A stretch of DNA of 64,000 nt from Pseudoalteromonas sp. Scap06. Lineage in GTDB: Bacteria > Pseudomonadota > Gammaproteobacteria > Enterobacterales > Alteromonadaceae. The stretch lies in contig NZ_CP041330.1 of the NCBI RefSeq assembly GCF_013394165.1, forward strand, positions 3,278,501 through 3,342,500, in the 5' to 3' direction. Below are positions 36,101 through 60,511 of this stretch, piece by piece. The position numbers and the translations under genes were made by a program. The notes under the pieces are model-generated. The model was given only the letters and a program-made list of their open reading frames with translations. It was not told the origin of the DNA and made no database searches. Numbering within the stretch: the stretch's first letter is position 1; each line of letters starts with the position of its first letter.

Positions 36101-36103
36101 GCT

Positions 36104-36560: not shown

Positions 36561-36563
36561 ATC

Positions 36564-43762: not shown

Positions 43763-44567
43763 GAAGCACCTCATTTACAACTTGAATGTCAGCTCCCCTT
43801 AGGTCAAAGAAGTCTCTGTCAAATTTCAAAAAGAAAGCACCAAGCTGCACGAGTTGCTTAAACCTGTAAAGGTAGGTGCCATCCTGAACCCCTATTTCTT
43901 CATCAAGAGCAACAAGTAAATTATGAATTCGTTCGTCTGGGTTGCTGAGAAAAACGTTCTCAATTGTGGCAACATGAGAGTAAAGCTCATCAACATCACA
44001 ATCATCTAGGTTCGCGCCAATTATCCACTCCAGAGTACGGTGGGTTTTCCTACAAATTTGTTCTTCCGTAACCACATACAACGGAATGCCAAGTCGAGCC
44101 AACGAAGCTCGTTCTAATTGAAGCTTTTCAATCGTCCGCCATCCTTTTAAATCTTGTACGTATTTTACATAAACACCAAACTTTTCATGTTCAGGACCGT
44201 CAAGCGTAACAACAAAATCGGTTGTTAGAGGCTTTTTCTCTGGCTCGTACTGTGGCGAGTGGTTAATCCCTAAATCATGGGCTAGCTTCAACGTGGTTTT
44301 TAGGTCATGTGGGTACTGAGATTGAATGTCGACCACTTGAGGATCCATATCCAAAATGATGAACACCATATATTCAAGTAAAGACAGTGTATGTTCAATG
44401 CGCCCAGTTGTGCGACTTTTAACTCGTCGCATTTGACCCTTTGAAGAAACCGTGTGCACAGTAGCACCAGGCTGATAATCTTTGTCTGGAACATAAGCTT
44501 CTTCGACAATTTCATTTAACTTAAGACTCATTTGAGCCTCGCCACTCACATCAGTGGTACTTAACAT
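43755..44567 (-). CDS. tnsA: TnsA endonuclease
   Basis: This protein of about 270 residues has the TnsA N-terminal nuclease domain with E65 (LSLLEYMVF), D117 (LTTDFVVTL) and K135 (VYVKYV). These are spaced almost as in Tn7 TnsA E63, D114 and K132. It makes the 5'-strand cuts that release the transposon, so cut-and-paste transposition is expected. A winged-helix-like C-terminal domain follows. The ATG at 44567 has AAGGAT upstream and is preferred over one seven codons earlier. It is the first gene of the transposition operon, divergent from the AlpA-like gene. Confidence 0.9.
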   Translation of the reverse strand: MLSTTDVSGEAQMSLKLNEIVEEAYVPDKDYQPGATVHTVSSKGQMRRVKSRTTGRIEHTLSLLEYMVFIILDMDPQVVDIQSQYPHDLKTTLKLAHDLGINHSPQYEPEKKPLTTDFVVTLDGPEHEKFGVYVKYVQDLKGWRTIEKLQLERASLARLGIPLYVVTEEQICRKTHRTLEWIIGANLDDCDVDELYSHVATIENVFLSNPDERIHNLLVALDEEIGVQDGTYLYRFKQLVQLGAFFLKFDRDFFDLRGADIQVVNEVLHA

Positions 44568-44865
44568 CGTTAATATCCTTATCAACATAAGACTCTTTGA
44601 GGCATCATCCTGATGCCCTTAATTACAAATTAATTTTAACACATTTTGAAAGATACGATCGTAACCCAATGTTTTTGTTAGCTTTAAAACAATATAACCA
44701 AGCTAAAGATAAATATATATAAAGCGTTTCCCTTAAAAAATAAGTACTTAATTAAATTTAAGAAAAAATAATTTTTTTGTAAAAAATTTATTTTTAAGTG
44801 CTAAAATTTTGAAAAATCTTTCTCGCCTCTTCTTTTGGTGAGCTATTCAAAATCACTCTTAAAAC
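44568..44865. other. Divergent control region between tnsA and the AlpA-like gene
   Basis: About 300 very AT-rich bases hold the promoters of the tns operon and of the regulator. Symmetric elements include TACGATCGTA (44656-44665) and the TTAAGT/ACTTAA-type repeats around 44730-44800. No coding frame or hairpin terminator is obvious. Operator identity is not resolved. Confidence 0.45.
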
Positions 44866-45252
44866 ATGCTTAAGACTCAGATGAAACAACATAAACAAGT
44901 AGAGCAATATCTAGAAGTTTTAGAGCTACAACTAAAAAACAATATTGCAGAAATGCAACTGGCATTAAAAACGATTACTGAAATATCAAATAACCTTTTA
45001 AACCAACAAAATGACAAAAGTATAAAGTCCTCCCAGATTTTAGACGCACCACCTACCTGTAAATTATCAGAAAAACCGCCGGAATCACTTTTACGAATTC
45101 AGGAGGTTTGTTTAATACTCGGGATAAGTAGATCGACACTATATCGAATGGTTAATGATGGCCAGTTCCCTAAAGCACTAGATTTAGGGCCTCGCTACAA
45201 AGCTTGGCAAAAGAGTACTGTTACAGAGTGGATTCGTGCATCTGATAATTGA
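44866..45252 (+). CDS. AlpA-like DNA-binding protein with coiled-coil N-terminus
   Basis: This 128-residue protein has an N-terminal amphipathic coiled coil (residues about 8-50). A C-terminal AlpA/MerR-type winged helix follows (LLRIQEVCLILGISRSTLYRMVNDGQFPKAL, then WQKSTVTEWI). AlpA proteins are small regulators of mobile-element genes. It is transcribed away from tnsA across a shared control region, so regulation of the tns genes is the likeliest role. Most AlpA proteins lack the coiled coil, which here may drive oligomerisation. Confidence 0.78.
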   Translation: MLKTQMKQHKQVEQYLEVLELQLKNNIAEMQLALKTITEISNNLLNQQNDKSIKSSQILDAPPTCKLSEKPPESLLRIQEVCLILGISRSTLYRMVNDGQFPKALDLGPRYKAWQKSTVTEWIRASDN

Positions 45253-45348
45253 ATTTACAACACAAAATAGCCTTTTTAATCGAACGAAGCTTTATGCTGT
45301 AAAGTAACAGGTAGAATCATACCTACCCATTACTATTGAAAACGAAGT

Positions 45349-46551
45349 TTATTTTTTAAAATGGCTTTTTACTTTATCTCTAAATGCTTTGCCAAATTTA
45401 GAATGATCATTGAGCTCATGGCGAACTCTGCCGGCAACAATACAAGGGGAGATGCTAAGGCTACTCGCAAATTTACGGACTGAACTAGTATCTTGCATTT
45501 CTAAATGGTTCAAATCACCTGATGGAATTAAGCTTTCTTGAGCCAATGCATCTGCTTCTTGTTCAACTTTATCGCCACCTTCTGCATCTAAATTATCCAA
45601 GTACCAAGTCTCGGTTCCATCTAAATGCAACGCGATATGCGCTAATTCATGCATTAAAGAAAACCAAAAGTTATCTAACTTATCGTGGCGTAATGTAAGT
45701 GCAACAACAGGGTTCCCGCTTGCACAAATACATACAGCACCGTCCAAATACGTTTTTGGTAAATGACCCTCAATAACTAAATGAATACCATGGCGGTTTA
45801 AAAACTCTTTAGCTAATTTAGGCCCCTGATCAGACCATGACAATTGCGCTAATTTTTTCATCCAATTAGCATCAACAGTTCCTTTTACATATTTGACTGG
45901 GAGCTGCTCTAATTGCGCTTTTTGTAAAACCCTAACTTGCCAAGCCCATAAAGCATAGCTATCAATCTCTTTGTCATTTGAGCGTAAATGAGCTGTGGTT
46001 CTTAATAATGCTGGTTTTAAAGAAAATCCATTGGGTACAGACGTTAAAAACTGATTAAGCTTCTCAATTGAATACTCTTTCAATTCATTTATTGAGCCTT
46101 TAAACCCTTCAAAATATCCACGAGATCGCATTTCAGTTATAGGAAAGGCATCCCAATTAATATCTTTTGAGATAGCGCTTTTAGCGCAAGGTTCTTTAAT
46201 CAACACATCAGCAGATATTCCTAAGCCCGCGCTTAGCTTACGAATCATATTCAAGCTTAAACTTCGCGTGCCATTTAGTACCTCAGTTACTTTTGAAGCA
46301 GATCCAAAATAAGGCACTAAATCTTTTTTAATCAAGCCCTGTTGCTCCATACGAAATTTTATTGCTTCAATTGGATCAGGGAAGTCAATAGGAAATGCTT
46401 CTTCCTCGTACTTTTCAATTAAAAATGCCAGTAAATCCAGCTCATCACTTTCTGCTGAATCTGGAGCGGGGTCAAAATCCATTAATGTCATGACACGCGC
46501 TAAAGCTTGCTCATGATCTTGAGACGATTTAATTAACTTAATGTGGCCCAT
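45349..46551 (-). CDS. HigA-like antitoxin fused to ImmA/IrrE metallopeptidase
   Basis: This 400-residue protein has an Xre helix-turn-helix at about residues 65-115 (KFRMEQQGLIKKDLVPYFGSASKVTEVLNGTRSL). After a linker there is an ImmA/IrrE-type zinc-peptidase domain with HELAHIALH (about residue 303) and a downstream Glu-rich EQEADALAQESLIP. It lies 9 bases after the HigB-like toxin gene. In such pairs the HTH protein neutralises the toxin and represses the operon. The peptidase domain could make antitoxin activity responsive to a signal; this is inference. Confidence 0.8.
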   Translation of the reverse strand: MGHIKLIKSSQDHEQALARVMTLMDFDPAPDSAESDELDLLAFLIEKYEEEAFPIDFPDPIEAIKFRMEQQGLIKKDLVPYFGSASKVTEVLNGTRSLSLNMIRKLSAGLGISADVLIKEPCAKSAISKDINWDAFPITEMRSRGYFEGFKGSINELKEYSIEKLNQFLTSVPNGFSLKPALLRTTAHLRSNDKEIDSYALWAWQVRVLQKAQLEQLPVKYVKGTVDANWMKKLAQLSWSDQGPKLAKEFLNRHGIHLVIEGHLPKTYLDGAVCICASGNPVVALTLRHDKLDNFWFSLMHELAHIALHLDGTETWYLDNLDAEGGDKVEQEADALAQESLIPSGDLNHLEMQDTSSVRKFASSLSISPCIVAGRVRHELNDHSKFGKAFRDKVKSHFKK

Positions 46552-46560
46552 AATACCTCC

Positions 46561-46845
46561 TTAAAAGCGTTGCTTGTCATACTCCGAATGGGTTCCAACC
46601 CATTCAATCACAGCAATACCATTTTGATATCTCACTTTCACAACTAACCTATAATGGTTACCTTTTACATTAAAGATCACCCTATTATCAGCTAAAAAAT
46701 CTGCGCTTCGATATCGGTTCTTTATATCTTGGGGTGTTTTCCAGTCAGCTTCATTAGCCTCTGAAAACCAAGCTTCAAGTGCTTTTTTTGCATTAGCATG
46801 CTTTTGACTAAACTCTGTAAGTTTGTCTCTTCCTAAGACCTTCAT
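46561..46845 (-). CDS. HigB-like mRNA interferase toxin
   Basis: This 94-residue protein matches the HigB branch of the RelE/ParE superfamily: FSQKHANAKKALEAWFSEA, DIKNRYRSADFL, VIFNVKGNHYRLVVKVRY and the terminal GTHSEYDK. HigB toxins cut mRNA on the ribosome. The toxin gene precedes the antitoxin, the usual order for higBA. It is the last pair before the transposition module and may stabilise the element. Confidence 0.87.
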   Translation of the reverse strand: MKVLGRDKLTEFSQKHANAKKALEAWFSEANEADWKTPQDIKNRYRSADFLADNRVIFNVKGNHYRLVVKVRYQNGIAVIEWVGTHSEYDKQRF

Positions 46846-46919
46846 TTCGCCTCAAAGTTCCCACGAAGGGAATTATAGTTGTTATTACCAAAAAGGGAAG
46901 TTAATTGTCATAATGGATT

Positions 46920-47963
46920 CTAATCTGCTGACGCTACGGTCCAAATCCGTTTAAGTGGTAGCTCAGCTTTAATGTCCTCTTCTAGCTTGTCGTAGAACAT
47001 AAATAATTGTTCTAATAAATCATGCTGAGTCCATAATCGAACTCGAAAAAAGCTTGATGCTAACTCTTTTTGAACGTTACCTTTAAACCCGCCCCAAGCC
47101 ACAAATAACCCTTGGGTAGCATTAAACTTTGTCATCGCCCCCATTAGTTTATCAACGGTTGGGCGATCAACTAAACCGTCTCCAGATTTAACTTCAACAC
47201 AAATTCGCTGAACTCCAAACCCCATAGGCCCGTCACCAGCTAAAATATCAGCACCACCATCCGCACCTTCAGGGCTCTGCCAACAGGTGTAGCCTTGAGC
47301 TGTTAAAATAGCAGAAACCAAACGTGTTAAGTTATGACCTCTAAATTTAGCCTCAATCAATTTAATAATTTGGCTATGACCCAGCTCCTCTAAATCTATT
47401 TCAACCTCTTCATCATTAGCATCTTGGTTAGACGAATAATTAACAGTTTGATTTATAATTTGCCTTTGAGTTTCAGCCTTCCAACCATTCGCTTCCATAG
47501 CGTTAATGCGTTCTTCAGCATTATTACGCTGAATCCGACATATAGTCATAAACGCACCAAAACTGTAAAGTAAATCTTGAGAAAAGTGTCCTCTGGGGAT
47601 TGGATCCGGTAACCACTCAACGCTACGCCAGTGAAAGAAAGGGTCGGCACCATTTTTATCAAAATTATAGTTTGATGTTATTTTTCCAATATAAATAACA
47701 GGCTGAATTTTTGAGGGCAAAATAACCCTGTCACCCATATTTATCGCATGGGCAAATGGCCAAACTTGGCTAGCATGATTCATTAACTTTTTAGGCTTAG
47801 CATCAGGAGCATTAATAGACAGCGCATCGATTAGCTCTTGGCGTTCTCTCATTTTAGTAAGATCGCTGTTTAATCCATCCCACGTCACATAAACTCGGTT
47901 TTCATTAATAAACTTTTGTTCAAACTGTCCTTGAGAGCCAGCTCTTATTAACCAAATTGACAT
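46920..47963 (-). CDS. Mrr-like restriction endonuclease with N-terminal EVE-like domain
   Basis: This 347-residue protein has an N-terminal region resembling EVE/PUA-like base-recognition domains (MSIWLIRAGSQGQF, VYVTWDGL, GDRVILPSK, FFHWRSVEWL; residues 1-150). A C-terminal Mrr_cat nuclease domain follows, with the PD-(D/E)xK signature GADGGADI then CVEVKSG (residues about 225-255). This architecture suggests type IV restriction of modified DNA. The ATG has TAAGGA upstream, lies 8 bases after the HNH gene, and ends the defence operon. Confidence 0.78.
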   Translation of the reverse strand: MSIWLIRAGSQGQFEQKFINENRVYVTWDGLNSDLTKMRERQELIDALSINAPDAKPKKLMNHASQVWPFAHAINMGDRVILPSKIQPVIYIGKITSNYNFDKNGADPFFHWRSVEWLPDPIPRGHFSQDLLYSFGAFMTICRIQRNNAEERINAMEANGWKAETQRQIINQTVNYSSNQDANDEEVEIDLEELGHSQIIKLIEAKFRGHNLTRLVSAILTAQGYTCWQSPEGADGGADILAGDGPMGFGVQRICVEVKSGDGLVDRPTVDKLMGAMTKFNATQGLFVAWGGFKGNVQKELASSFFRVRLWTQHDLLEQLFMFYDKLEEDIKAELPLKRIWTVASAD

Positions 47964-47971
47964 AATTTTCC

Positions 47972-48832
47972 TTAAGGCATTAAATCTAATTGAGGCAGTA
48001 TACAGGCCAAATACGGTCTCTTTGTATGGGGTAAAACAGTGTGTACTATAGCTGCGCTAAAACCTGACTTTCGATTACAGCCTTCAATTATCAACTGCTT
48101 TGCGTCTTCTATCCCTTTCAAGTCCTCATCGTCTAAATCATCTAAGCTTAATCGACTAGTATGTCTCAAAAAGTTTAAAGCCGTCCTAGCATTTTTAATT
48201 GCCTTCCTTCGAGCTGAAACAATAGATTTTTCATCGAGGTTCAATATTTGTTTTGAAAGTTTCACACGCTGATAAGCTGTAGAGTCCTGCTGCTCGGAAT
48301 AAATTGATGCCGTTTTACCTGTTTCAACTTCAAATGTAATAAGTTGAACATCATCCAGCGAACACGGATCTAAAATAGTTCGATAATTATAATCACAAGC
48401 AGTATCACCCCATGCTCTTTGTGATTCATCAATTAAAGGAAAGTAGTCAACTTTTCCTCCATCTTCGCGGCTTCTATTAGCATAGATACAAGAATAACGA
48501 TAATTATCAATATCAAATGCCTTCCACCAATACCCTGGGTGTTGACCTGTAGCCGAGCATAGAATAGTCCCATCCTCGAGCTTAACTCTTCCCTTTGGCC
48601 AATAATGATCCACATCAAAATCGGTTCCTATTTGCGGAGTTTCGGTGTACCAACATTTAGCACCAAACTCTTGTACAAATGTTCTTTTTAAAGATGACCA
48701 TTTATTGCCGATCTCCTCAATTGTTACTTTAGGATCCGCTGAAGCTGCTATTTTTCGTGACCATTGAATAGCTTTTTTATCCCAAGTTTTTGTTTTACAA
48801 TTGGAAAAATGGCGTTTATCAATGTGTCTCAT
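47972..48832 (-). CDS. PtuB-like HNH nuclease
   Basis: This 286-residue protein resembles the HNH effector of Septu and retron-Ec78-type systems. It has a CWYTE-type Cys near residue 62, the core FDVDHYWPKGRV, GYWWKAFDIDNYRYSC about 30 residues later, and KVDYFPLIDE. The His of DHYWPK is the catalytic candidate. Where PtuB has paired Cys for structural zinc, some positions differ here. It overlaps the AAA ATPase gene by 14 bases, so the two are translated together. The pair is expected to cut DNA or tRNA on phage infection; the target is not known. Confidence 0.78.
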   Translation of the reverse strand: MRHIDKRHFSNCKTKTWDKKAIQWSRKIAASADPKVTIEEIGNKWSSLKRTFVQEFGAKCWYTETPQIGTDFDVDHYWPKGRVKLEDGTILCSATGQHPGYWWKAFDIDNYRYSCIYANRSREDGGKVDYFPLIDESQRAWGDTACDYNYRTILDPCSLDDVQLITFEVETGKTASIYSEQQDSTAYQRVKLSKQILNLDEKSIVSARRKAIKNARTALNFLRHTSRLSLDDLDDEDLKGIEDAKQLIIEGCNRKSGFSAAIVHTVLPHTKRPYLACILPQLDLMP

Positions 48833-50405
48833 TGTCTGACACCTTTAAATCTTTTAATAAACTTTTGATAAGTTTTTTTCTAGCCTCAACACTGGCGACT
48901 TCTTCTCCAAATTTTAAGTACTTACTTCTAGCGATTAAAAATTGCCGATAGTCTTCATCAGGATGAATGTAACCATAACCGAGTTCTTCTAACTCTTGGT
49001 TTAATTCTTCTAACCTATCAGAGTCCTTATCCTCAACTAATAACTCACGGCGCTCACGAATCAATTGCTGAGTACCGTGGTCTAAGGTCGTTAAAAGGCC
49101 AAACATATCACTCGTTAATATCCCATTCACGGTCATTCCTTTAGGTGATAACTTAGGCTGACTAACCGATATCTCTTGGGAATGCTCTGAGCGAGTAACA
49201 ACCTGAATTTGCTCTTGGTCAAGCTCATAGATTGATAGGGGGTGATGTGTTGTCATTACAATGTGGCTGACAAATCCATCGGGTACAAACATCTCTAATA
49301 TTTGATGATATTTTGCTGCCCAATATGGATTTAAGTGAGTATCAGGCTCATCTAAAAGAAACAAAGCATCTCGTTTAGCAGTAAACTGAAGTAACCCAAA
49401 TACAGTTAAAAGTTGCTGCTCACCTTCACTAAGTTCTGTAAAACTAATATCTTCAGCACGGCCTTCCAATGTTACTCTAATTTCTAACCTATCTAACATG
49501 CCTGACAAGTAGGTGGCCTCTAGTACTTTGAAAAAATCTTCTGGCCGCATATTTCGTGCTAATGACTCCAAAGATTTTAAATCTGGCAGATGATAGGCCA
49601 CCACATCATGGTACTTTTTCTTTTGAGCATGTAAATCCAGCGTTTCTTCCTGCTGAGTAACAGGGCCAATGCCATTAGTTCTTAATAATTCAACAAAATC
49701 ACGAATGCCGCCTTGAATCCCCCAAAAATCATTCGCATCATTTGACTCTGCATCCGTTGGCTTTTTCAAAAAGAAAGTGGCCGACTCAAATTTGGAAATT
49801 GATAGTTCACGGCTTAAAAATTTCTTAGCTTTCGGAAAGCCACGGGCTGAGAAAAAGGCTAACAATGAAAATTGGCTATGAAATCCCTTAGCATAAAAAA
49901 AGGGACGAATGTTAGAACGAATACTTTCATCTTTATGACGCACACTTTGGTAGAACTCTTTGCGTTTGTTAAAGAGCAACTTTTCTAAACGATCACTGGG
50001 CCCTGAATAATAAGCAAAAATATTCCGTGGTAAATATTTCGAAATACCTTCTTTATTGCGCTTTACTTTAGCAATATCGATACTTTGCTTTTTATCTAAC
50101 TCTTTACCACTTGACGTAGTGCAATATTCAATCTGGTAAATAGACTGTCTGTCTGGGTTGGCATCCACTGACATCCAAGTTTCAAGACTTTCATCGCCTA
50201 ATTTATAATCCAACTCATAGGAAAAAGGCGGCTTAGAGCCATCATCTAAATGCAAAAAAATTTTTACTAAAGCCTCAAGAATATTAGATTTCCCCGTGCC
50301 ATTTTGCCCGATAATAACAGTGCGGCTAGTACCGGATGAAAATCTTATTTCAACGCCTTTTAGATTTTTAAAGTCCGAACGAATATTAAGGCGAAGTAAC
50401 TTCAT
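48819..50405 (-). CDS. AAA ATPase, PtuA/restriction-associated type
   Basis: This 528-residue SMC/ABC-like ATPase has Walker A IGQNGTGKSNILEAL at residue about 33, a signature-like ELSEGEQQLL, Walker B ALFLLDEPDTHLNP and a switch His in MTTHHPLS. It lacks a TOPRIM nuclease domain, which separates it from OLD proteins and matches PtuA-type sensors. Such ATPases also recur next to type I hsd genes. Its ATG overlaps the hsdS stop (ATGA) and its end overlaps the HNH gene, binding the Septu-like pair to the restriction operon. Confidence 0.82.
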   Translation of the reverse strand: MKLLRLNIRSDFKNLKGVEIRFSSGTSRTVIIGQNGTGKSNILEALVKIFLHLDDGSKPPFSYELDYKLGDESLETWMSVDANPDRQSIYQIEYCTTSSGKELDKKQSIDIAKVKRNKEGISKYLPRNIFAYYSGPSDRLEKLLFNKRKEFYQSVRHKDESIRSNIRPFFYAKGFHSQFSLLAFFSARGFPKAKKFLSRELSISKFESATFFLKKPTDAESNDANDFWGIQGGIRDFVELLRTNGIGPVTQQEETLDLHAQKKKYHDVVAYHLPDLKSLESLARNMRPEDFFKVLEATYLSGMLDRLEIRVTLEGRAEDISFTELSEGEQQLLTVFGLLQFTAKRDALFLLDEPDTHLNPYWAAKYHQILEMFVPDGFVSHIVMTTHHPLSIYELDQEQIQVVTRSEHSQEISVSQPKLSPKGMTVNGILTSDMFGLLTTLDHGTQQLIRERRELLVEDKDSDRLEELNQELEELGYGYIHPDEDYRQFLIARSKYLKFGEEVASVEARKKLIKSLLKDLKVSDNETH

Positions 50406-52018
50406 CGATTGATCTCCAAATACTGCTGACCATCTTTATCTATTTCTTTAATAACCTGCTGCTCTAGTAGCTGACTGATCTCTTTTAGCACCTCGCGTAA
50501 ATCCATCAACTCTTTAAGTTCATCAAAGATTGCTTGTGGTTTTGCAATCCCTTTTTTATTGAGCACACCTACCACTGGATTTTCTAACAATATTTTCGGC
50601 TGGATCTCTTTTTTGGCTTTCGCTTTACGGGTACCTTTTTTCTTTTCTTTGTTCGCGTTTTTATTTGCCTCACGCTCAGCCTTGATCTTCTCTAATAACG
50701 CCTCGGCACTGTTGTCGCCGCTAATTAAATCAGGGTTGGCGGCGCGCCAATCGGCAGAGAGTTCACCGCGAAAGGCTTTGGCTAAGATAGATTGGGTGAG
50801 GTTATTAACGCGCTCTAATGCAGCATTGGTTTTTTGTTCGATGCTATCGGCAAAGGCAAACAGCTCTTCGACACGTCGAACAATTTCGGTTTGCTCTTCG
50901 AGGCTTGGCAGCTCGAATTCTAAATTCATTAAGAGGCTTGTTTCAACACTAGATACGGTCGTTCCAGCTTTAGAGCATTCTTCTAATATTCTTCGCTCTA
51001 ACCCTTTTAACAGGTAAAACAAAAACTCAGGACTGATAAACCCCAAGTTTGGAACAAGTGCTTTGATATCTTGATTGATCGTTACTGGAGCTAGTGTTCT
51101 TGCAACCGGAAATGAATGCGCAAGTATCCCGCTTCGAGTTACGACTAAGATAGAGTTTGATGGGACTAATTTCATACCGCCAGTGTCGATTGCTTCCTTT
51201 GTAATTTTATCTTGAGAACTGGCAATTAAGTCCGTCTTCATATCTTTTGGTGACACCCAGGGTATATCACCACCTTCCCAATAATTGGAATTGCTTTTGC
51301 TGGGGGTTTTACCTCCAGATATAGCTGTAATTGCTTTTAACCGAGCTGGATTAGAAGATACTTTTTTCGCGCTCCGCCACTCTTCCGTCAGCTTCCCACT
51401 AACCGCAGCAGCGAGGACGGATTGGCGGAAGGTTTTTAGGATTTTTGGAATACGGTCGAGGCGGGCTTTAGTGGTTTCCACCTGTGCCAACAGGGTGTCG
51501 AGTTTATCGGCAATGACTTTTTGTTCGGCTAGGGGGGGAAGTGGTAGCTTAATCAGTTTAAGCTCTTTAACCGCTGCCAGATTTTGAATAGCCCCACCAC
51601 CTGAATTTGTTAAAACACTTTCTTGCACTGATGGCGAGCGAAAAAGTTTAAGGAAAAAATCAGGCCAAATCTCTTCTGCCAGTCTAATTCTAAGCAAGGC
51701 TTGATTGATGACACCTTCGGGTGCATCTTGAGGCACTTGGGTAATTCTCCCCATCGTTCCTGAACAACTGACTAAGAAGTCACCACCCTGAACCCAAAAG
51801 CTTGCTAAATCATTGTATTTATCTTCATCAACAAAATACCTAAATCGAGTGCAGTCATCATTAATAGGAGCATACTGCTCATACACAGCATAACCACTCT
51901 CTTTAAAGAATGCTTTTTTTAAGTTACCTCCGAATGGCCCTCTTCTAAAGCCATTTACTGATGTAAGGTCTTCCCAGTTAACTTCTAACCATTGTTCAGG
52001 CAAATTAACCTCGCTCAT
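50402..52018 (-). CDS. hsdS: Type I restriction specificity subunit HsdS
   Basis: This protein of about 538 residues has two target-recognition domains (residues about 1-150 and 230-380). Each is followed by the conserved helical spacer (LPLPPLAEQKVIADKLDTLL and ELPSLEEQTEIVRRVEELF). After the second spacer come KAFRGELSADWR and a Lys-rich tail of about 100 residues. This tail is longer than usual and ends with a helical segment (VLNKKGIAKPQAIFDELK). The two recognition domains set a bipartite DNA target that cannot be deduced here. The start ATG overlaps the hsdM stop (TGATG). Confidence 0.9.
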   Translation of the reverse strand: MSEVNLPEQWLEVNWEDLTSVNGFRRGPFGGNLKKAFFKESGYAVYEQYAPINDDCTRFRYFVDEDKYNDLASFWVQGGDFLVSCSGTMGRITQVPQDAPEGVINQALLRIRLAEEIWPDFFLKLFRSPSVQESVLTNSGGGAIQNLAAVKELKLIKLPLPPLAEQKVIADKLDTLLAQVETTKARLDRIPKILKTFRQSVLAAAVSGKLTEEWRSAKKVSSNPARLKAITAISGGKTPSKSNSNYWEGGDIPWVSPKDMKTDLIASSQDKITKEAIDTGGMKLVPSNSILVVTRSGILAHSFPVARTLAPVTINQDIKALVPNLGFISPEFLFYLLKGLERRILEECSKAGTTVSSVETSLLMNLEFELPSLEEQTEIVRRVEELFAFADSIEQKTNAALERVNNLTQSILAKAFRGELSADWRAANPDLISGDNSAEALLEKIKAEREANKNANKEKKKGTRKAKAKKEIQPKILLENPVVGVLNKKGIAKPQAIFDELKELMDLREVLKEISQLLEQQVIKEIDKDGQQYLEINR

Positions 52019-53649
52019 CAATTCGCCCCTTCCAACGCCGCCAGCAATTCATCCAACTCACCCAAAGCCGCTGCCAATTCGTCTTTGGCTTCCCTTGCCA
52101 ATACAGCAGGCTCAGGCAAATCAGCCGCATCGACGCTGTCTTTGTCTTTTAGCCAGCTAATATCCAATGAGTCGCCTTTAGTATTGGCTATCCACTCGCG
52201 GCTAAAGCAGCGCCAGCGGCTATGTAAAAGCTTGTCGTCGACGTTTTCATTTTCCACGGCTGCTTGTTTGTCTACTGCGATTTGTTCAGCACCAAAGCTG
52301 TATTCACCTTGGGTGCGGGCTGCGAGTGTTGAGGCAATATCTTGTTGTCGCGATAAATCACGACCTACAGGATCATATACGGCTTCAAACGGCGCTAAAT
52401 GGCTATCACTAAACGGAGTGCGTTTGCCAAAGCTCGGCATGTTGGTACGCAAGTCGTACACCCATACATTTTCAGTGCAATTTTCTTGCTGATGCTTGTC
52501 GGTTGCGCTGCCTTTGGTAAAGAACAAGACATTGGTTTTTACCCCTTGGGCATAAAAAATACCGGTCGGTAAGCGTAAAATAGTGTGTAAATTACACTTG
52601 TTCATTAAATCGCGGCGTACGTCTGTGCCCACGCCTGCTTCAAACAATACGTTGTCGGGCAATACTACAGCGGCGCGGCCACCGGGTTTTAAATTGCGGT
52701 AAATATGCTGTAAAAACGCCAGTTGCTTGTTGCCTGTTTTATAGGTTAAATCGTCACGGGTATTGCTGGCCTCGCCGCCTTTGCTGGTACCAAACGGCGG
52801 ATTAGCCAAAATTATATCGGCGCTTGGTAAGGCTTTACCGGCATCGCCCAGTGCGTTGCCTAAATGTATTACGCCCTCGTCGTCGCCTTCCATACCGTGT
52901 AATAAGCAATTCATTAACGCTAAACGGCGCGTGTTAGGTACAAGCTCTACCCCCACAAAAGCGTCGTTTTTTTGAAATTCAGATTGCTTGCTATTTAAGT
53001 CAAAATAATCATCGGTTTGCTCACGCATGTATTGGTCGGCAGCGACCAAAAAGCCTGCTGTGCCCGCAGCAGGATCTTGTATTACTTCGCCAACTTGCGG
53101 CTTCATGCAACGTACCATGCTATTAATTAACGCGCGCGGGGTAAAGTACTGGCCCGCGCCCGATTTAGTCTCACTGGCGTTTTTCTCTAATAAGCCTTCA
53201 TATAAATCGCCAAGGCCATCTTTAGCGGCACTAAACCAATCAATTTGATCCAGCGTTTTAATCATTTGCTCTAAATGGCGCGGCTCACGTAAGCGCGTTT
53301 GCGCATCGGCATAAATGGCGCTGATTAATGGATCTTCGTGTACTTGCACTTCTTTGGTTTGGCCTGGGTTTTCTGGGTCAGCCTCAAGGCGTTTACCGGT
53401 TGAGAGGGCAAATAAAATGGCCTTGTAATCATTTAATAAATTGATGCCTGATTTGTCGCTGATATCCTGCCAGCGGCAGCCGATTGGCAGCGGATGTTTT
53501 TTTAAGGTGCCGGCTTCGGTGTTTTCGTGCACCATTTTAATAAACAACAGCAGTACCAGCTCGGTAACGTAGTCGCTGTAGTTAATACCGTCGTCACGCA
53601 GTACGTCACACAGGTTCCAAAGTTTTTGTACAATGTCGTTATTGGTCAT
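52018..53649 (-). CDS. hsdM: Type I restriction methyltransferase HsdM
   Basis: This 543-residue N6-adenine methyltransferase has the SAM motif DPAAGTAGFLVAA (about residue 190), the catalytic motif IILANPPFGT (about residue 280), and an N-terminal HsdM helical domain (LWNLCDVLRDDGINYSDYVTEL). It methylates the host target and forms the core M2S complex with HsdS. Its stop overlaps the hsdS start. It is separated from the fic gene by 27 bases. Confidence 0.93.
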   Translation of the reverse strand: MTNNDIVQKLWNLCDVLRDDGINYSDYVTELVLLLFIKMVHENTEAGTLKKHPLPIGCRWQDISDKSGINLLNDYKAILFALSTGKRLEADPENPGQTKEVQVHEDPLISAIYADAQTRLREPRHLEQMIKTLDQIDWFSAAKDGLGDLYEGLLEKNASETKSGAGQYFTPRALINSMVRCMKPQVGEVIQDPAAGTAGFLVAADQYMREQTDDYFDLNSKQSEFQKNDAFVGVELVPNTRRLALMNCLLHGMEGDDEGVIHLGNALGDAGKALPSADIILANPPFGTSKGGEASNTRDDLTYKTGNKQLAFLQHIYRNLKPGGRAAVVLPDNVLFEAGVGTDVRRDLMNKCNLHTILRLPTGIFYAQGVKTNVLFFTKGSATDKHQQENCTENVWVYDLRTNMPSFGKRTPFSDSHLAPFEAVYDPVGRDLSRQQDIASTLAARTQGEYSFGAEQIAVDKQAAVENENVDDKLLHSRWRCFSREWIANTKGDSLDISWLKDKDSVDAADLPEPAVLAREAKDELAAALGELDELLAALEGAN

Positions 53650-53676
53650 GATGTTCTCAAAATTAGTAATAGGGGA

Positions 53677-54756
53677 TTAGCCGTGTGCAACGAGTAAGGA
53701 GCACAAGGGTTGATTTATGTAGTAATTAACACGGCCTACTTTTTGTTTGGTCAAAAAGCCGTGCTCCACCAGTTGTTCTAAATACTTGGTGGCAGTAATC
53801 CGAGTTATACCGAGGTCTTCCACAATGAAGTCTATTTTGGTGTAGGGGTGGTTAAATAAGTTGTTAAGTAAATCTTGGCTGTAAATTTTAGGGAGCTGCT
53901 CTCGTATACCGTGTTTTACTTCTGCCATAAGGGTTTTCATGGCGGTGATAAGTGAAATGGTGTCTCGGGCGGTATCAATAACACCATCAAGCATAAACTC
54001 TAACCAAGGTACCCAATTACCTGTATCACGCACTGCTTGTAAATTAGCGTAGTAATTAGCTTTGTTCTTAATAACAAATCGGCTTAAGTACAGCACAGGT
54101 AGGTTTAGTAAGTCTTTAGTCACCAAGTACAAAATATTTAAAATACGCCCGGTACGGCCGTTACCATCGTAAAATGGGTGAATGCTCTCAAACTGATGGT
54201 GAATAATGGCCATTTTTACCAATGGGTCAGCATCACATAACTCATCGTTATTGATAAACTGAACAAGGTTATCCATAAGTTTTGTAATTTCATCGCCGTG
54301 TTGTGGTGGGGTATAAACCACTTCACCTGTTCGTGCATTTTTAAGATCAGTGCCGGGGAGCTTTCGTAAACCGGCATCATTATGTTCTAGGTTTTTTTGT
54401 ATTGCTAGAATATCATTAAGGCGGATAAGTTTGCTTTTACGTGCGGTTTCGAACCCTTGCTTTAAAGCGACTGCATAATCTTGTACTTCTTTGGTGGCAG
54501 GGTTGGTTACAGCTTCTTCAAACAGGTTAGCTTTATAAAGTTCATCGTGTGTTGTTACGATGTTTTCTACTTCTGAGCTGTCTTTTGCTTCTTGTAGAGC
54601 GAGTGTATTAATCAGTATGGCTTCGTTAGGTATGCTTGCGGCAACGCCTTTTAGCTCTGCTAAATGACGATGTGCTGTGGCGGTTTTTTTTAAAACGGCA
54701 CGGGTTTCCCATTGTTCAATGTTAGGGAGAGGTAAAGGCTCAATATAGGTCGACAT
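53677..54756 (-). CDS. Fic-domain AMP-transferase with winged-helix C-terminus
   Basis: This 359-residue protein has an inhibitory helix motif SSEVENI (about residue 60) and the Fic core HPFYDGNGRTGR (about residue 193). A winged helix follows from about residue 290 (YTKIDFIVEDLGITRITATKYLEQL). Fic enzymes add AMP to hydroxyl groups of target proteins; an N-terminal inhibitory helix of this class II type keeps them off until displaced. It is inserted between hsdR and hsdM, a recurrent position in type I loci. A four-part inverted-repeat operator lies just upstream, so autoregulation by the winged helix is plausible. Confidence 0.88.
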   Translation of the reverse strand: MSTYIEPLPLPNIEQWETRAVLKKTATAHRHLAELKGVAASIPNEAILINTLALQEAKDSSEVENIVTTHDELYKANLFEEAVTNPATKEVQDYAVALKQGFETARKSKLIRLNDILAIQKNLEHNDAGLRKLPGTDLKNARTGEVVYTPPQHGDEITKLMDNLVQFINNDELCDADPLVKMAIIHHQFESIHPFYDGNGRTGRILNILYLVTKDLLNLPVLYLSRFVIKNKANYYANLQAVRDTGNWVPWLEFMLDGVIDTARDTISLITAMKTLMAEVKHGIREQLPKIYSQDLLNNLFNHPYTKIDFIVEDLGITRITATKYLEQLVEHGFLTKQKVGRVNYYINQPLCSLLVAHG

Positions 54757-54776
54757 AAATAACTTTTATCCTTTTT

Positions 54777-54843
54777 TATACATGTCTGTTTGGTTATGTA
54801 TAAATTGTTTAGAAAATTATACATAAGCTATATAACATGTATA
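54777..54843 (-). promoter_or_regulatory. Nested inverted-repeat operator before fic
   Basis: TATACATGT (54777-54785) is the reverse complement of ACATGTATA (54835-54843), and TTATGTATAA (54794-54803) of TTATACATAA (54817-54826). The result is four TATACAT-type half-sites in 67 bases, nested symmetrically, in the 116-base gap between hsdR and fic. Confidence 0.7.
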
Positions 54844-54872
54844 GCAATTCCATTTATTTATATACTTTATTG

Positions 54873-57800
54873 TTAAGCTGTTTTAGCTGGCCATATAGCT
54901 TCACTAAGCTCCTCTAGCACTATATCAAGTTGATTATTCAATACTTTATCAAATTGCTTTGCGCCGCCATGCTCACCAAAGCGGTTATTAACAAAATCAC
55001 GGTCAATAATGACTTCATGCACAAGTTGCTTAGCTAATCGGTCTAACCACTTACGCTGGTTAGGGTTCCACTGGTGGCTTTGGTAAATGCGCGCCATAGC
55101 CTGCGCAACTCTTTGTTCAAACGGAACCAGTGCCTCACCTAATGCCGCGCGACGAATATGACCAATAATGCTCGCTGCAATATCTTGATTAGTTTGGTTA
55201 CGCACTGCACTTTGCAGCTTGGGCTCGGTGTAACCTGCGCTATCAAGTAGTAACTTAATATCTTTGAGCTGGGTGCGATTTAAATCACGAGGCTTGTTAA
55301 CAACCGCTGCAAGCGCTGCATTTTGATTTAATTGTTCTTTAATAAACTGGTTAAAGCTATCGAGGTAATCTTCTGGTTTTTGATGCGCACCATAGCTTTG
55401 GCTACGATCGCGGATTTCATCGTGATGCTCTGAAATAACAGGTTGTCGTTCGCTGCCTAGTAAGCTATTGACCTCTGCTAATTGATTTAATAAACCACTG
55501 TGCTGGTTTATAAACGTTGCCGCTTGTTTTGGCCCTAGCTGGTTTAAATGGGTGTGTAAGCTTTTTGGTTCAACACCCCATGACTCTTGCAACTCATCTA
55601 ACTTTTGCTTAAGAGCTGGTTTATTTTCTGATTTTTTCTGTGCTTTACGTAATACCCGCATCACCTTTTGGCTTAGTTGACTCAGCACGACATCAGCATG
55701 GCTTTGTTCGGGTGTATCGCCAGGAGCACTAAGCGCTCGTTCAAGTAGATCTGGATTGGTAATTTCATCCACTAATTGGTCGAGCGTAACGTTCGGATCT
55801 CTTACCAGAGGCTTCATGGTATTAACATCTTGCAATGCTGCGTAGATATCAACTGGGTCATAAATGCGAAATACGGTTTTACCTATGTCGTCACAGCGGC
55901 GAGTTGCACGCCCAACCATTTGCTCGTATAAAATGCGCGATTTTACTCGGCGCATAAACACTAAGTTACAAATTTTAGGCACATCAATACCGGTCGTTAA
56001 TAAATCAACGGTAATGGCAATATTGGGGTATCGCTCGTTTTTATATTGGCGGATAAGCTGTTCTACCTTATCGCTTTGGCCAGTTACTTTAGCCACGGCA
56101 GCCTGATTATATTCGCCGTTATAAAGATCTTTAAAAGCCTCATCGAGTAAGCGTTTTACCATGTCGGCGTGCAAATCGGTGGCACAAAAAATCATGGTTT
56201 TCTCGTCACCAAAGGGATCTAGCTCTTGCACAAGTTGCTCACAAATAACACGGTTGAAGTTTTCGTTAATAACTCGGCGATTAAACGCGTCAACTTCGAA
56301 ACTTAGTTCGTCGTCGAGCTCAGCACTTTGTACTTCACCGGTTTGCGTATTAATAGCGCTAACTTCCTCACCTTTGGTAAAAGTAATGCCATTTTGTGTC
56401 AATAAGGTTTCATAACGAATCGGTGGCTCGTGATCTATTAGCCAGTCGTCAGCTACTGCTTCTCTGTATGAATAGGTATAAACAGGTTTGCCAAAAATAT
56501 CACTCGTGTGTTTTGCCGGTGTAGCCGTAAGTGCGATTTTTACTGCATCGAAATAATCTAAGACTCGGCGATAGCTCGACAAGTATTGGCTGGTGTCGCG
56601 AGTAGCCAGTTCACCCTCTGTCATTTCTTGATCGAGTGTATAACCTCGGTGGGCTTCATCAATTATAATGCAATCAAACTGGTCTAGCGGTGGCGGGTTA
56701 TCACTCATAAAAATACGCTTAACCATAGCTTGCACAGTTGCAACTTGTACGCGGGTTTCTGCCTCGGCCGCCATATCACCTAGTTCTGCCACATTGTATA
56801 TTTTTGATAATGTGTGATTTTGTTCAAGTGGAGCTTCGTTAAAAGCGTCTATTGCTTGTTGCCCTAGAGCTGTTCGGTCGACTAAAAATAAAATTCGCTT
56901 GAAACGTTCAGCTTTTAAAAAGCGATACATTAAACCAATAATTGTACGGGTTTTTCCGGTGCCTGTGGCCATTGCTAGCAAAGCATGGCGAATATTTTGC
57001 GCTAAGGTATTTTCAACAGCGATAATCGCTTTTTGCTGGTAATCACGCACTTTTAAGTAGCCAAAAGGCTCATCTTTGAGTTTTTGTTGGGCGGCGTCTT
57101 TGCTGCGCTTAAGTAGATCAAGCAACCCCTCAGGGGTATGAAACTTTGGCAAAGCGCGTTTAATATTCGCAGGTTCGCGTACATCACGAAACCACGTACC
57201 TGATTGTTCAGCAAGTTGAGGTACATACGGGCGACCGTTACAGGAATAAACAAACGGTACTTTATAGTGGCCATCATCTTCATCTGGCCATGCTATGGTC
57301 AACCCTTGTAGCTCCCAAGCAGGTATTAAAGAGGATTGAACATTCAAGCCTTTACTGTATCGCTCTGCTTGTGAAATTTTACCTGCAACATTGGTGTTTT
57401 CTTTTTTAGCTTCAACCACCGCAATAGGTGAAAGGCCTGCAAAAAGTACGTAATCAGCACGCCCTTTTTTTCCTTGATATTCAGTAGGCCACTCAGCAAT
57501 GGCGATGTTTTTTCCTTTCTCTGGGCGAGTGCCATTTTTATGGGTGAGCACTTCAGTATCAACATCCCAGCCAGATTCTTGTAACTGTTGGTCGATTAGA
57601 ATACGTGTTAACGCTTCATCCAGGACAATATTCTTAGTTGCAGCTTTTGAACTTGTACTTAGCTTTTGCTTATATGAGGTGTTTGATTCGTCATCTAGGT
57701 TTGAAAGCTTAGTTTGTAACTCTGCTATCTTCTTTTCGTAGTTGTGTTTTTGGTCGGCAAGCGCTCTTTCATGTTCTTTCGCTTGCTCAGCTAGCTCTTT

Positions 57801-58376
57801 GGACTCTTGGTCCATTTCAAAAGCTAGCGATTCATATTCTGTTTTTTCTTTATTTATTAGTTCGTTGAGTTGTTGGCTGGAGTCAAGATCGAGGTTTGCT
57901 TTTTGCAGGTCGACTTTTAAGTTATCTATTTCACTTTGTAAACTACGTAATTGCTCACTGGGGTCATGAGGAGGGGTAAAAGCACCCGGTTTAAATGAGG
58001 TACCCTGCTTACCAAATGACTGATGAAACCATATCGCTAACTTACGTGCGACAACTAAGCCATTAATAGCTTCTTTATGTTTTGTTCTAAATTTGTGAGT
58101 TGCTTTATTCCCTTCAACCCTCAGCGTATGAAAAAGGTCTTTAACAACCTGATCTAATTGAAGCTCTCTACTGATTCTGTGTATTAATTCAAGCTGCGAA
58201 GTATTGTCTTCAAAGTTAACTCTTACTAATACAGCAATGTGTTGCGCAATCGCCTCGCCTAGCTGTCTCAATTTAATTAACGTGGTATTAGGGTCACTAG
58301 CAAACGCTTTTTCAGCCGCACCCGCTAGCTCGACAAAAAGATCGTCGTGTTCAGAAAGAAAGTAAAAATTTCCCAT
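54873..58376 (-). CDS. hsdR: Type I restriction subunit HsdR
   Basis: This protein of about 1167 residues matches EcoKI-type HsdR from its first residues (NFYFLSEHDDLF, DPNTTLIKLRQLGEA). It has an N-terminal DUF4145-like domain, a coiled coil (residues about 160-240) and a nuclease domain with ADYVLF then PIAVVEAKK. The motor has MATGTGKTRT, IIIDEAHRG, ALTATPAKHT and MVGRATR. It translocates and cuts unmethylated DNA. The ATG at 58376 matches the EcoKI start and has GTGGA upstream, so it is preferred over one eight codons earlier. It is the first cargo gene inside the glmS-proximal end. Confidence 0.92.
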   Translation of the reverse strand: MGNFYFLSEHDDLFVELAGAAEKAFASDPNTTLIKLRQLGEAIAQHIAVLVRVNFEDNTSQLELIHRISRELQLDQVVKDLFHTLRVEGNKATHKFRTKHKEAINGLVVARKLAIWFHQSFGKQGTSFKPGAFTPPHDPSEQLRSLQSEIDNLKVDLQKANLDLDSSQQLNELINKEKTEYESLAFEMDQESKELAEQAKEHERALADQKHNYEKKIAELQTKLSNLDDESNTSYKQKLSTSSKAATKNIVLDEALTRILIDQQLQESGWDVDTEVLTHKNGTRPEKGKNIAIAEWPTEYQGKKGRADYVLFAGLSPIAVVEAKKENTNVAGKISQAERYSKGLNVQSSLIPAWELQGLTIAWPDEDDGHYKVPFVYSCNGRPYVPQLAEQSGTWFRDVREPANIKRALPKFHTPEGLLDLLKRSKDAAQQKLKDEPFGYLKVRDYQQKAIIAVENTLAQNIRHALLAMATGTGKTRTIIGLMYRFLKAERFKRILFLVDRTALGQQAIDAFNEAPLEQNHTLSKIYNVAELGDMAAEAETRVQVATVQAMVKRIFMSDNPPPLDQFDCIIIDEAHRGYTLDQEMTEGELATRDTSQYLSSYRRVLDYFDAVKIALTATPAKHTSDIFGKPVYTYSYREAVADDWLIDHEPPIRYETLLTQNGITFTKGEEVSAINTQTGEVQSAELDDELSFEVDAFNRRVINENFNRVICEQLVQELDPFGDEKTMIFCATDLHADMVKRLLDEAFKDLYNGEYNQAAVAKVTGQSDKVEQLIRQYKNERYPNIAITVDLLTTGIDVPKICNLVFMRRVKSRILYEQMVGRATRRCDDIGKTVFRIYDPVDIYAALQDVNTMKPLVRDPNVTLDQLVDEITNPDLLERALSAPGDTPEQSHADVVLSQLSQKVMRVLRKAQKKSENKPALKQKLDELQESWGVEPKSLHTHLNQLGPKQAATFINQHSGLLNQLAEVNSLLGSERQPVISEHHDEIRDRSQSYGAHQKPEDYLDSFNQFIKEQLNQNAALAAVVNKPRDLNRTQLKDIKLLLDSAGYTEPKLQSAVRNQTNQDIAASIIGHIRRAALGEALVPFEQRVAQAMARIYQSHQWNPNQRKWLDRLAKQLVHEVIIDRDFVNNRFGEHGGAKQFDKVLNNQLDIVLEELSEAIWPAKTA

Positions 58377-58542
58377 TTTATTATCCACAGCTAACTCCAT
58401 TTAAGCACTTGCTCTAACTTATTGGGCATCTACTTATTCAACTTATATTTTTATTGTTGAATACCATTAAGCTTATTACTTTCAGCCATAATACCAATAT
58501 AAGTTAAAAATTATACATTCTTAATCAAAAAGATATACATAC

Positions 58543-58690: not shown

Positions 58691-60511
58691 TTACTCAACA
58701 GTAACCGATTTTGCTAGGTTACGTGGCTGGTCGACGTCAGTGCCTTTAATTACTGCTACGTAGTACGACAGCAACTGCAGAGGAATTGTATATACAACAG
58801 GGGCAATCACGTCATCTACATGGTTTACGTTGATTACACGCATTGTATCGTCTGACTCAAAGTGTGAGTCTTTATCAGCGAATACATAGATGATGCCGCC
58901 GCGAGCACGTACTTCTTCTACGTTTGATTTAAGCTTTTCAAGCAATTCATTGTTTGGTGCTACAACAATAATTGGCATGTCGGCATCAATAAGCGCTAAT
59001 GGGCCGTGTTTAAGCTCACCTGCTGCGTAGGCTTCAGCGTGAATGTATGAAATCTCTTTAAGCTTAAGTGCGCCTTCCATCGCGATTGGGTATTGTGAGC
59101 CGCGCCCTAAAAACAGTGAATGGTGTTTATCAGCAAATTCTTCAGCAAGGTCTGCAATGCCATCAGCCAATAGTAGCGTTTCTTCTAATTTAGCTGGTAG
59201 CAGTTTAATAGCGTTAACGATCGCGCTTTGATCTAAGCCTTTCTCTTGCGCAATAGACGCAGTAAGCATTAACAAACCAACAAGCTGTGTAGTAAATGCT
59301 TTAGTAGAGGCTACACCAATTTCAGCGCCTGCTTTGGTCATAAAGGCAAGGTCTGATTCTCGCACAAGCGATGAGCCAGGTACGTTACAAATAGTCATTG
59401 ACCCCATATAGCCTTGCTCTTTAGCTAAACGCAGTGCAGCTAAAGTATCAGCCGTTTCGCCTGATTGTGAAATAGTTACTAGTAGGCTATTTTCGTGTAC
59501 AAATGACTGACGATAACGGAACTCAGAGGCAATTTCTACGTTACAGCTAACACCTGCATATTGCTCAAGCCAGTAACGAGCAACCATACCTGAGTGGTAT
59601 GACGTACCACAGGCAATAATTTGTACGTGTTTTACGTCTTTAAATATTTGCTGTGCGCTATCGCCAAAAGCATCAATAGCTACGCGGTCATCGTTTAAAC
59701 GTCCTTCAAGGGTGTTACGTACTGCAAGTGGCTGCTCATAAATTTCTTTTAGCATGTAGTGACGGTAATCACCTTTGCCTGATGCATCTTGTGTGATGTT
59801 TGATTCAACAACTTCACGCTCAACCGCGTTGCCATCTGCATCAAAAATTTCTACTGTGTCGCGAGTAATACGCGCTACATCACCTTCTTCTAAGAAGATA
59901 AAGCTGCGAGTTACTGGTAATAATGCCAGTTGATCAGAAGCAATAAAGTTTTCACCAAGGCCTAAACCAATAACTAACGGGCTACCTGAGCGTGCTACAA
60001 TAATTTCGTTATCATTCGCTTTATCGAACACAACGGTACCAAATGCACCTTCAAACTGCTTAACAGCAGCTTGAACTGACGCTAATAAAGTGGTGTGCTG
60101 CTGACGTAACTGATGAATTAAATGCACCATGACCTCAGTGTCGGTGTCTGATAAAAACTCGTAACCGTCGCCTTTAAGTGCTGCACGCAAGCTTGCGTGG
60201 TTTTCAATAATACCGTTATGCACAAGCGCTAATTGATTGCTTGAAACATGTGGGTGAGCATTGGCTTCAGTTACACCGCCATGAGTCGCCCAACGAGTGT
60301 GTGCAATACCTGTGTGGCCGCTAACACCAGCTTGTTCAAGTGCTGACTCTAAGTTTACAACCTTACCAACCGCTTTAACTGTATTAAGTGTATTGCCTTC
60401 AAGTAAAGCTACACCTGCTGAGTCATAACCGCGGTACTCAAGACGCTTAAGGCCTTCAACTAAGATTTTATTTACTGGACGTTCTGCAACAGCCCCAACG
60501 ATTCCACACAT
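58691..60511 (-). CDS. glmS: Glucosamine-6-phosphate synthase
   Basis: This 606-residue enzyme makes glucosamine-6-phosphate from fructose-6-phosphate and glutamine, the first step to peptidoglycan and lipopolysaccharide amino sugars. It has the N-terminal nucleophile Cys ([12 protein letters not shown]), the glutaminase block HTRWATHG, two SIS domains ([12 protein letters not shown] and [21 protein letters not shown]), and the conserved C-terminus [16 protein letters not shown]. The last codons are the attachment site for TnsD-guided Tn7 elements, one of which lies 20 bases downstream. Expression probably follows the upstream DeoR-type gene on the same strand, 46 bases away. The gene looks fully intact. 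Confidence 0.97.

Follow-up and report, generated by a model that had tools for sequence, protein, structure and literature searches.

A Septu-type ptuA-ptuB pair linked to hsdS in a type I restriction-modification locus of Pseudoalteromonas sp. Scap06

We analysed a 64,000-nucleotide (nt) stretch of Pseudoalteromonas sp. Scap06 DNA (the window, to which all coordinates refer unless another locus is named) carrying a type I restriction-modification (R-M) locus whose specificity gene, hsdS, is joined to a Septu-like gene pair encoding an ATPase (PtuA) and an HNH nuclease (PtuB). The order hsdS-ptuA-ptuB is found in nearly every close relative examined and is therefore more than chance, and the HsdS proteins linked to this PtuA mostly bear an extra small C-terminal domain. 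We suggest, at a probability of roughly 0.55, that the locus is a type I R-M system with a built-in Septu-type nuclease, in which PtuAB would be docked on HsdS as a methylation-gated effector. Type I recognition and PtuAB are, on the sequence evidence, probably two parts of one machine.

Gene content of the cluster and linkage of ptuAB to hsdS

A preliminary description of this DNA had listed seven genes on one strand in the order hsdR, fic, hsdM, hsdS, ATPase, HNH and Mrr-like, and all seven were found, on the minus strand. The 1175-residue restriction and translocation subunit HsdR (54873-58400, with a start at 58376 as likely as that at 58400; NF008521, 1608 bits; ResIII, EcoEI_R_C and HSDR_N) is separated from HsdM by a 359-residue SoFic-type Fic protein (53677-54756; Fic_N, Fic and SoFic-like_C in Pfam, SoFic in PADLOC). 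HsdM itself (52018-53649; 543 residues; Pfam N6_Mtase, 248 bits) is an N6-adenine methylase with an intact NPPF motif, and the type I specificity subunit HsdS (50402-52021; Pfam Methylase_S) has 539 residues if read from a TTG and 538 from an ATG. By its domains the type I gene set is complete, with hsdR, hsdM and hsdS encoding the catalytic and recognition domains, and its activity is predicted from sequence. The PtuA-like AAA/ABC ATPase (48819-50405; 528 residues) matches the PADLOC PtuA model PDLC00293 over residues 1-522 at 524.9 bits, and its Walker A, signature and Walker B motifs are all present in the alignment. The PtuB-like HNH nuclease (47972-48832; 286 residues) matches the PADLOC PtuB model PDLC00343 at 205.1 bits and has no Pfam match; its invariant His76 aligns within the VDH of a VDHYWP core. 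An AlphaFold2 (AF2) model of PtuB has a mean predicted local distance difference test (pLDDT) of 76.8, and its nine top Foldseek matches are all chains of retron PtuAB complexes (6/9 at E ≤ 0.001, best E 6.0e-06), with modest template modelling scores, at best 0.46/0.60. The seventh gene (46920-47963; 347 residues) encodes a protein with an Mrr catalytic domain (Mrr_cat, 75.9 bits; PADLOC candidate PDC-S02, 512.9 bits).

Spacing between these genes is +116 nt from hsdR to fic, +27 nt from fic to hsdM and +8 nt from ptuB to the mrr-like gene, and the remaining junctions overlap: hsdM/hsdS by 4 nt (1 nt if hsdS begins at the ATG), hsdS/ptuA by 4 nt and ptuA/ptuB by 14 nt. The overlaps between hsdM and the HNH gene thus number three rather than the four counted previously, and the ATGA overlap said to join the Septu-like pair to hsdS is present. 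Scans for promoters (25 sites against 32.3 expected) and terminators (17 against 13.8 expected) were uninformative on a single transcript.

The search for this linkage in other genomes started from PtuA alone. Among 394 order-level genomes 12, the window's own included, match PtuA at E ≤ 1e-30, and the other 11 were annotated; a contig scan with a PtuA alignment added at least 60 loci and at least 587 pattern matches, with annotation by profiles grown from the window proteins. We define the lineage as the 45 loci, window included, with a PtuA of at least 430 bits among the matches listed (individual loci carry L numbers). Of the 44 lineage loci with upstream DNA visible, 43 have a same-strand hsdS within 150 nt upstream of ptuA, the exception being L021, where the contig ends 265 bp upstream of ptuA, and ptuB follows ptuA directly in 44/45. 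The commonest hsdS/ptuA junction is the 4-nt overlap (10/43). Weaker PtuA classes are less often linked, with hsdS upstream in 14/17 cases at 200-430 bits and in 1/8 below 200 bits, and we therefore limit the claim of linkage to the lineage of at least 430 bits; moreover, as the query alignment was built from PtuA of hsd loci, the sample is biased towards this lineage. Each of the six plasmid PtuA matches falls within an hsd locus, degraded in one case, as does each of the two other matches among 398 phylum-level genomes, and a phage collection yielded no PtuA relative at 1e-10. By their organism titles the linked loci span seven phylum-level groups (Pseudomonadota, Bacteroidota, Chloroflexota, Verrucomicrobiota, Planctomycetota, Spirochaetota and Melainabacteria), many of the genomes being metagenome-assembled. 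Across 41 loci the positions of hsdM and hsdR vary while the order hsdS-ptuA-ptuB holds. The pair thus adjoins hsdS far beyond this genome, and chance neighbours or a one-off arrangement can be rejected.

As a control we used the family of PADLOC model PDLC00304, another PtuA, which occurs in 10 of 274 class-level genomes at 13 places, 12 of them in nine genomes besides the window's own. An hsdS stands directly upstream in one of the 12 control places (L126), and type I genes are nearby in three (L126, L127, L134); only about 230 bp are visible upstream of L127, L136 is a fragment, and in L125, L129 and L131 the gene upstream has no Pfam assignment, so that a very divergent HsdS is possible there. 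That canonical Septu is likewise fixed to hsdS is therefore unsupported. In a tree of 76 ATPases one branch (support 99/99) splits 64 HsdS-associated proteins from 12 canonical Septu PtuA, at least three of which also lie behind hsdS (L108, L122, L126). The 64 comprise 45 of at least 430 bits, 16 of 200-430 bits (three of these with no hsdS found directly upstream) and three weaker ones beside hsdS; the tree was rooted at the midpoint and has some long branches. Protein distances also correlate across loci: over 41 loci r was 0.73 for ptuA-ptuB, 0.64 for ptuA-hsdM, 0.63 for ptuA-hsdS, 0.49 for ptuB-hsdM and 0.71 for hsdS-hsdM, and over the 27 loci with hsdR it was 0.72 for ptuA-hsdM, 0.72 for ptuA-hsdR and 0.97 for hsdM-hsdR, with none of 2000 permutations as high in any comparison.

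The HsdS extension and HsdS-ATPase fusions

Residues 1-461 of the window HsdS correspond to an EcoKI-type HsdS, and the roughly 77 residues beyond them form an extra C-terminal extension. Model NF007278 covers residues 2-461, at a score below its cut-off (330 vs 662 bits), and the match to the EcoKI HsdS in the PDB likewise stops at residue 461. We built a profile from the last 80 residues of 43 PtuA-linked HsdS, counting scores above 10 bits as positive. When each sequence was left out in turn, 38 of the 43 were positive, with close relatives remaining in the training set; L044 narrowly failed (9.4 bits), as did four others to which we return below. Nine of nine linked HsdS from outside the training set were positive at 18-71 bits, several having close relatives in training, and the tail of L087 scored 42.7 bits with a near relative, the window, in training. 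For negatives we took 23 of the 30 HsdS loci from an order-level search that gave matches in 46 genomes, excluding six linked to a lineage PtuA and L121, which has confusingly overlapping open reading frames (ORFs). None of these 23 HsdS without a lineage PtuA, five of which adjoin other ATPases or canonical Septu, was positive (maximum 3.4 bits; 22 listed, one without a score), and another two HsdS that neighbour canonical Septu, of which one is short, gave at most 3.8 bits. The window-type tail is itself well conserved: in 14 database HsdS it is 68-97% identical and the recognition domains 17-27%, save for one identical first domain.

An AF2 model of the window HsdS (22 sequences, mean pLDDT 75.0) places a low-confidence linker at 464-476 before a block of pLDDT 84-90 that holds helices at 481-489, 494-501 and 507-519 and strands at 523-528 and 531-536, the latter forming a two-strand hairpin. 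From this modelled secondary structure we read the tail as a possible winged-helix layout.

Some loci carry the HsdS and ATPase domains in one chain. The hsdS ORF of L076 (1019 residues) includes an ATPase domain, and in a comparison with 5.8 billion proteins Methylase_S and AAA/SMC Pfam domains occur together in 64 of the 120 matches listed (702 in all). Both this fusion (307.5 bits) and the unfused ATPase of L064 (799.9 bits) pass the cut-off of 300 for the NCBIfam model TIGR04435, named 'restriction system-associated AAA family ATPase', so that part of the association was already known to curators. The window PtuA falls below that cut-off at 149.9 bits, as do the Escherichia coli copy L147 (164.9), L139 (186.0) and L140 (173.4). 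With gene order, the extension and these fusions pointing the same way, the earlier proposal that the tie between the Septu-like pair and hsdS exceeds chance is strongly supported.

Where no PtuB is recognised, the HsdS-associated ATPase is followed by a protein of 336-399 residues (L139 1827-2984; L140 7772-8932; L141 6372-7571; L064 11782-12840; also in L065, L067, L070, L073 and L076), for which no Pfam family was found at 0.01 in nine of nine tested. One more downstream protein, the tenth (L071, 276 residues), matches DUF4357 and, weakly, GIY-YIG. Four downstream proteins compared with NCBIfam gave one sub-threshold HNH match (19.7 vs 52.15), and the protein of 336-399 residues is possibly a divergent HNH nuclease.

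PtuAB as a proposed methylation-gated effector and its alternatives

Presence of hsdR was scored in another set of 45 loci, chosen for adequate flanks (28 with hsdR, 17 without); short-flank loci were left out, among them L019, L021, L023, L029, L036, L041, L043, L048, L052, L053, L088 and L091. In these 17 the hsdR profile matched nothing in the flanking DNA, which extended for at least about 4.7 kb to either side. Of ten large unassigned ORFs from nine hsdR-less loci, eight belong to other families and two (L028, L142) matched none at 1e-6. On one FastTree PtuA tree the presence or absence of hsdR takes 8 changes by parsimony, compared with a mean of 13.9 and a minimum of 9 when shuffled. 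The hsdR-less loci keep the NPPF motif of HsdM in 16/17 and the core His of PtuB in 17/17. Against the PADLOC PtuB models the PtuB of hsdR-less L028, L142 and L147 score 288-345 bits, and that of L031 305 bits. Matches to Providencia hsdS-ptuAB DNA occur in nine of 5426 complete E. coli genomes, which places the locus in natural E. coli strains; in three copies inspected, genes for a methylase, an S subunit, an ATPase and a PtuB-type protein follow in this order with no hsdR in the stretch seen, and an hsdR-less E. coli copy scores 714.9 bits to the PADLOC Septu models. In environmental E. coli OW1E2 the four genes hsdM-hsdS-ptuA-ptuB occupy L147 9163-14839, where hsdR was likewise not found.

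We favour PtuAB as an HsdS-docked, methylation-gated effector because the pair persists where HsdR is not found. In such a system the C-terminal domain of HsdS would anchor a PtuA(B) oligomer to the complex of HsdM and HsdS that recognises DNA, and when that complex met unmethylated target sites the PtuA ATPase would release or activate PtuB, which would then cleave host or phage nucleic acid and stop infection. The substrate may be tRNA-Tyr or DNA, as in studied Septu and retron PtuAB: retron-Eco7 PtuAB is described as depleting tRNA-Tyr, Septu EcB88 as cleaving its variable loop, and another Septu as attacking nicked DNA (PMC11555353, PMC13096335). HsdM would mark self DNA and so keep PtuAB silent. 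HsdR, where present as in the window, would be a parallel effector, and the loci of many relatives show no effector besides PtuAB. What the sequences show is that the genes are linked and that HsdS is extended; each further step of this scheme is one that we infer. More tentatively, and a little short of an even chance, the hsdR-less hsdM-hsdS-ptuA-ptuB loci, those of E. coli included, could be a methylation-guided Septu in which HsdR has been exchanged for PtuAB on a winged-helix adaptor of HsdS, with unmethylated DNA as the trigger; the window would then keep both effectors, and the fusions (L076, TIGR04435) would be the same design with another partner.

Several observations count against this reading. 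In the same 27 loci hsdM is tracked less closely by PtuA (r=0.72) than by hsdR (r=0.97), and the lower ptuA correlations indicate that cassettes are sometimes exchanged. When left out of its own profile the window's HsdS tail scores only 4.0 bits, and the linked HsdS of L049, L051 and L054, which also failed when left out, lack the extension. By profile comparison the window-type tail matched the full set of other tails at 47%, two subgroups at 65-66% and two others at 2% and 0.3%, compared with 0.08% for unlinked tails, so that it resembles the general linked tail only moderately. Some type I loci (L137 3398-6837, L138, L145) have canonical-type Septu pairs behind an hsdS that lacks the extension; those of L137 and L138, with weak PtuB matches, were found via HsdS and lie outside the 12-place count. 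Furthermore, hsdR was scored as absent from the fetched flanking DNA and from ten scanned large ORFs among more.

The main rival to an HsdS-docked effector is a guard arrangement of the PrrC kind, in which the intact type I complex would silence PtuAB and a phage anti-restriction protein would free it, leading to abortive infection. PrrC is described as encoded inside a type IC locus, silenced by it and activated by T4 Stp (PMC12707154, PMC3506569, PMC3874165), with the PrrC170 locus given as HsdR, HsdS, PrrC, HsdM, and the reported loss of tRNA-Tyr to retron-Eco7 and Septu EcB88 PtuAB would suit a guard as well. We nevertheless consider it less likely, considering that no hsdR was found nearby in 17/45 loci, although HsdMS by itself could still serve to sense DNA-mimic inhibitors. 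This guard reading is the one suggested in the preliminary description, where the pair provides back-up killing when restriction is blocked: it is possible, but we do not favour it as the whole story, as those 17 loci perhaps lack the type I restriction that the pair would back up.

Less probable still is that Septu and type I R-M are independent, kept together only by overlapping genes with shared translation and by joint transfer. It is true that several modules in the same cargo are freely swapped or added, that some canonical Septu PtuA sit beside hsd genes and that type I genes lie near three of the 12 control places, but independence leaves unexplained the HsdS extension, the HsdS-ATPase fusions and an hsdS-ptuA junction that stays fixed across phyla despite mobile hsdM and hsdR. 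Winged helices commonly bind DNA, and in the model a flexible linker sets the tail apart as a domain of its own, so the tail might instead be a further DNA-binding or regulatory element with no contact to PtuA; we think this very improbable, since the extension is missing from all 23 HsdS without a lineage PtuA, even from the five beside canonical Septu or other ATPases.

The window pair has the two-gene ATPase and HNH architecture of type I Septu and of retron I-A effectors. Its adjacent PtuA and PtuB genes have intact motifs, as in type I Septu, the PADLOC Septu models already cover this lineage and name both proteins as type I Septu, and the modelled PtuB is similar to chains found in retron PtuAB complexes; the pair differs in forming a separate ATPase branch, in standing behind hsdS, mostly with an HsdS extension, and in that often no hsdR is found. 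Toxins coupled to R-M have been discussed as a general idea by Makarova et al. 2012 (PMC3506569). EcoprrI with PrrC, a type IC anticodon nuclease, is similarly described as having, among its hsd genes, one for a toxin nuclease that includes an ABC-ATPase domain, whereas here the nuclease is an HNH pair, hsdR is often not found and an anti-restriction trigger is hypothetical; PrrC itself was not among the PADLOC matches listed, the best family of each scanned window protein being another. The TIGR04435 family is a related HsdS-associated ATPase, with the protein of 336-399 residues and no Pfam match behind it in L064-type loci, compared with a recognised PtuB in the window. PARIS (AriAB) is again an ATPase with a nuclease, which senses an anti-restriction protein and cleaves tRNA, but its nuclease is another one and it is described as a two-gene system of the P4 satellite hotspot, outside hsd loci (PMC12707154). 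MADS counts a methylase, an S-like subunit and an AAA ATPase among its families, and window proteins score to them, but far below the NCBIfam cut-offs (MAD2 94.6 vs 720, MAD5 46.9 vs 400) in a search limited to these scans. A literature search found no account of a fixed hsdS-ptuAB unit, of the HsdS extension or of an hsdR-less form, with preprints and most subscription journals outside its coverage.

If the effector reading is true, the type I test of self and non-self can drive an effector other than HsdR, and restriction-modification is joined with the Septu family, otherwise studied alone or with retrons. The infection sensor of Septu would then be a defined DNA-recognition complex with methylation as a known off-signal, so that sensing becomes directly testable. 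The small HsdS domain would be the likely joint between R-M and PtuAB, and the separate names 'type I RM' and 'Septu' may divide one system in two.

Accessory genes and the Tn7-like element

That all seven genes form one compound system, as previously suggested, holds for the hsdS-ptuA-ptuB linkage and is rejected for the whole, because Fic is swapped for an AbiD-type gene and Mrr is sporadic (matches in 8/72 annotated loci, at differing positions). Plasmid pPsKG3_1 of Pseudoalteromonas sp. KG3 has the same gene order as the window with the AbiD-type gene in the place of Fic. The match to this plasmid is 97.1% over window positions 45216-50893, 90% for hsdR and 88% for hsdM, and the HsdS recognition domains differ. 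The interval between hsdR and hsdM (window 53677-54756; L087 15735-16730) is an exchangeable toxin slot, and Fic also stands directly before hsdM in L014, L091, L137, L139 and L141.

The same-strand run goes on past the mrr-like gene into a HigB-like gene (46561-46845, minus strand; PF09907; PADLOC PD-Lambda-2_A) and an XRE-M78 peptidase-like gene (45349-46551, minus strand; PF06114; PADLOC PD-Lambda-2_B). PD-Lambda-2_C was not found among the window proteins scanned (ORFs of at least 90 residues), and component C is given as needed for defence in the original PD-Lambda-2 paper; the A/B pair (45349-46845), without a recognised third component, is kept alongside the Mrr gene on pPsKG3_1. We regard Fic and Mrr as exchangeable accessories, and the PD-Lambda-2 pair as an accessory in the same Tn7-like cargo.

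All seven defence genes are cargo of a Tn7-like element of 20,094 bp (38577-58670) that lies 20 nt past the stop codon of glmS (58691-60511; TIGR01135, 852.5 bits) and is bounded by terminal inverted repeats sharing TGTGCACGTTAAATAATG. With homologues of tnsA, tnsC and tnsD, inverted ends with TGT/ACA and insertion just past glmS, it has the features of a Tn7-like element at attTn7. Its 5-bp flanks (AAAAC/AAACC) are alike at four of five positions, and a script found no exact 5-bp duplication at the element ends. On the minus strand lie TnsA (43755-44588; Tn7_TnsA-like_N, 46.8 bits), a probable TnsB (41654-43774) named by position and size only, for which Pfam, PADLOC and NCBIfam all gave no family at 0.001, a TnsC region (40223-41651) and TnsD/TniQ (38746-40290; PF15978, PF06527). 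The TnsC region consists of two ORFs in different frames, 41019-41651 with weak, sub-cut-off TniB/AAA_22 matches and 40223-41035 with Tn7_TnsC_Int, and tnsC looks interrupted. An AlpA-type regulator (44866-45252, plus strand; PF05930) marks the inner border of the cargo, which sits between tnsA and the glmS-side end of the element; in Tn7 itself the tns genes adjoin the glmS-side end. No tns was found among the annotated features of pPsKG3_1, in about 44 kb around the locus and with an incomplete gene table. Defence genes as Tn7-like cargo have been described before (PMC8649781).

Elsewhere in the window, 34997-36926 encodes a 367-residue protein with a glycine-rich C-terminal part followed by two near-alike 120-residue paralogues, the first two of these proteins having no Pfam family; the arrangement resembles an effector with duplicated partners. 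A tandem pair of near-alike genes, named by eye as alkaline-phosphatase-like, occupies 19818-23203.

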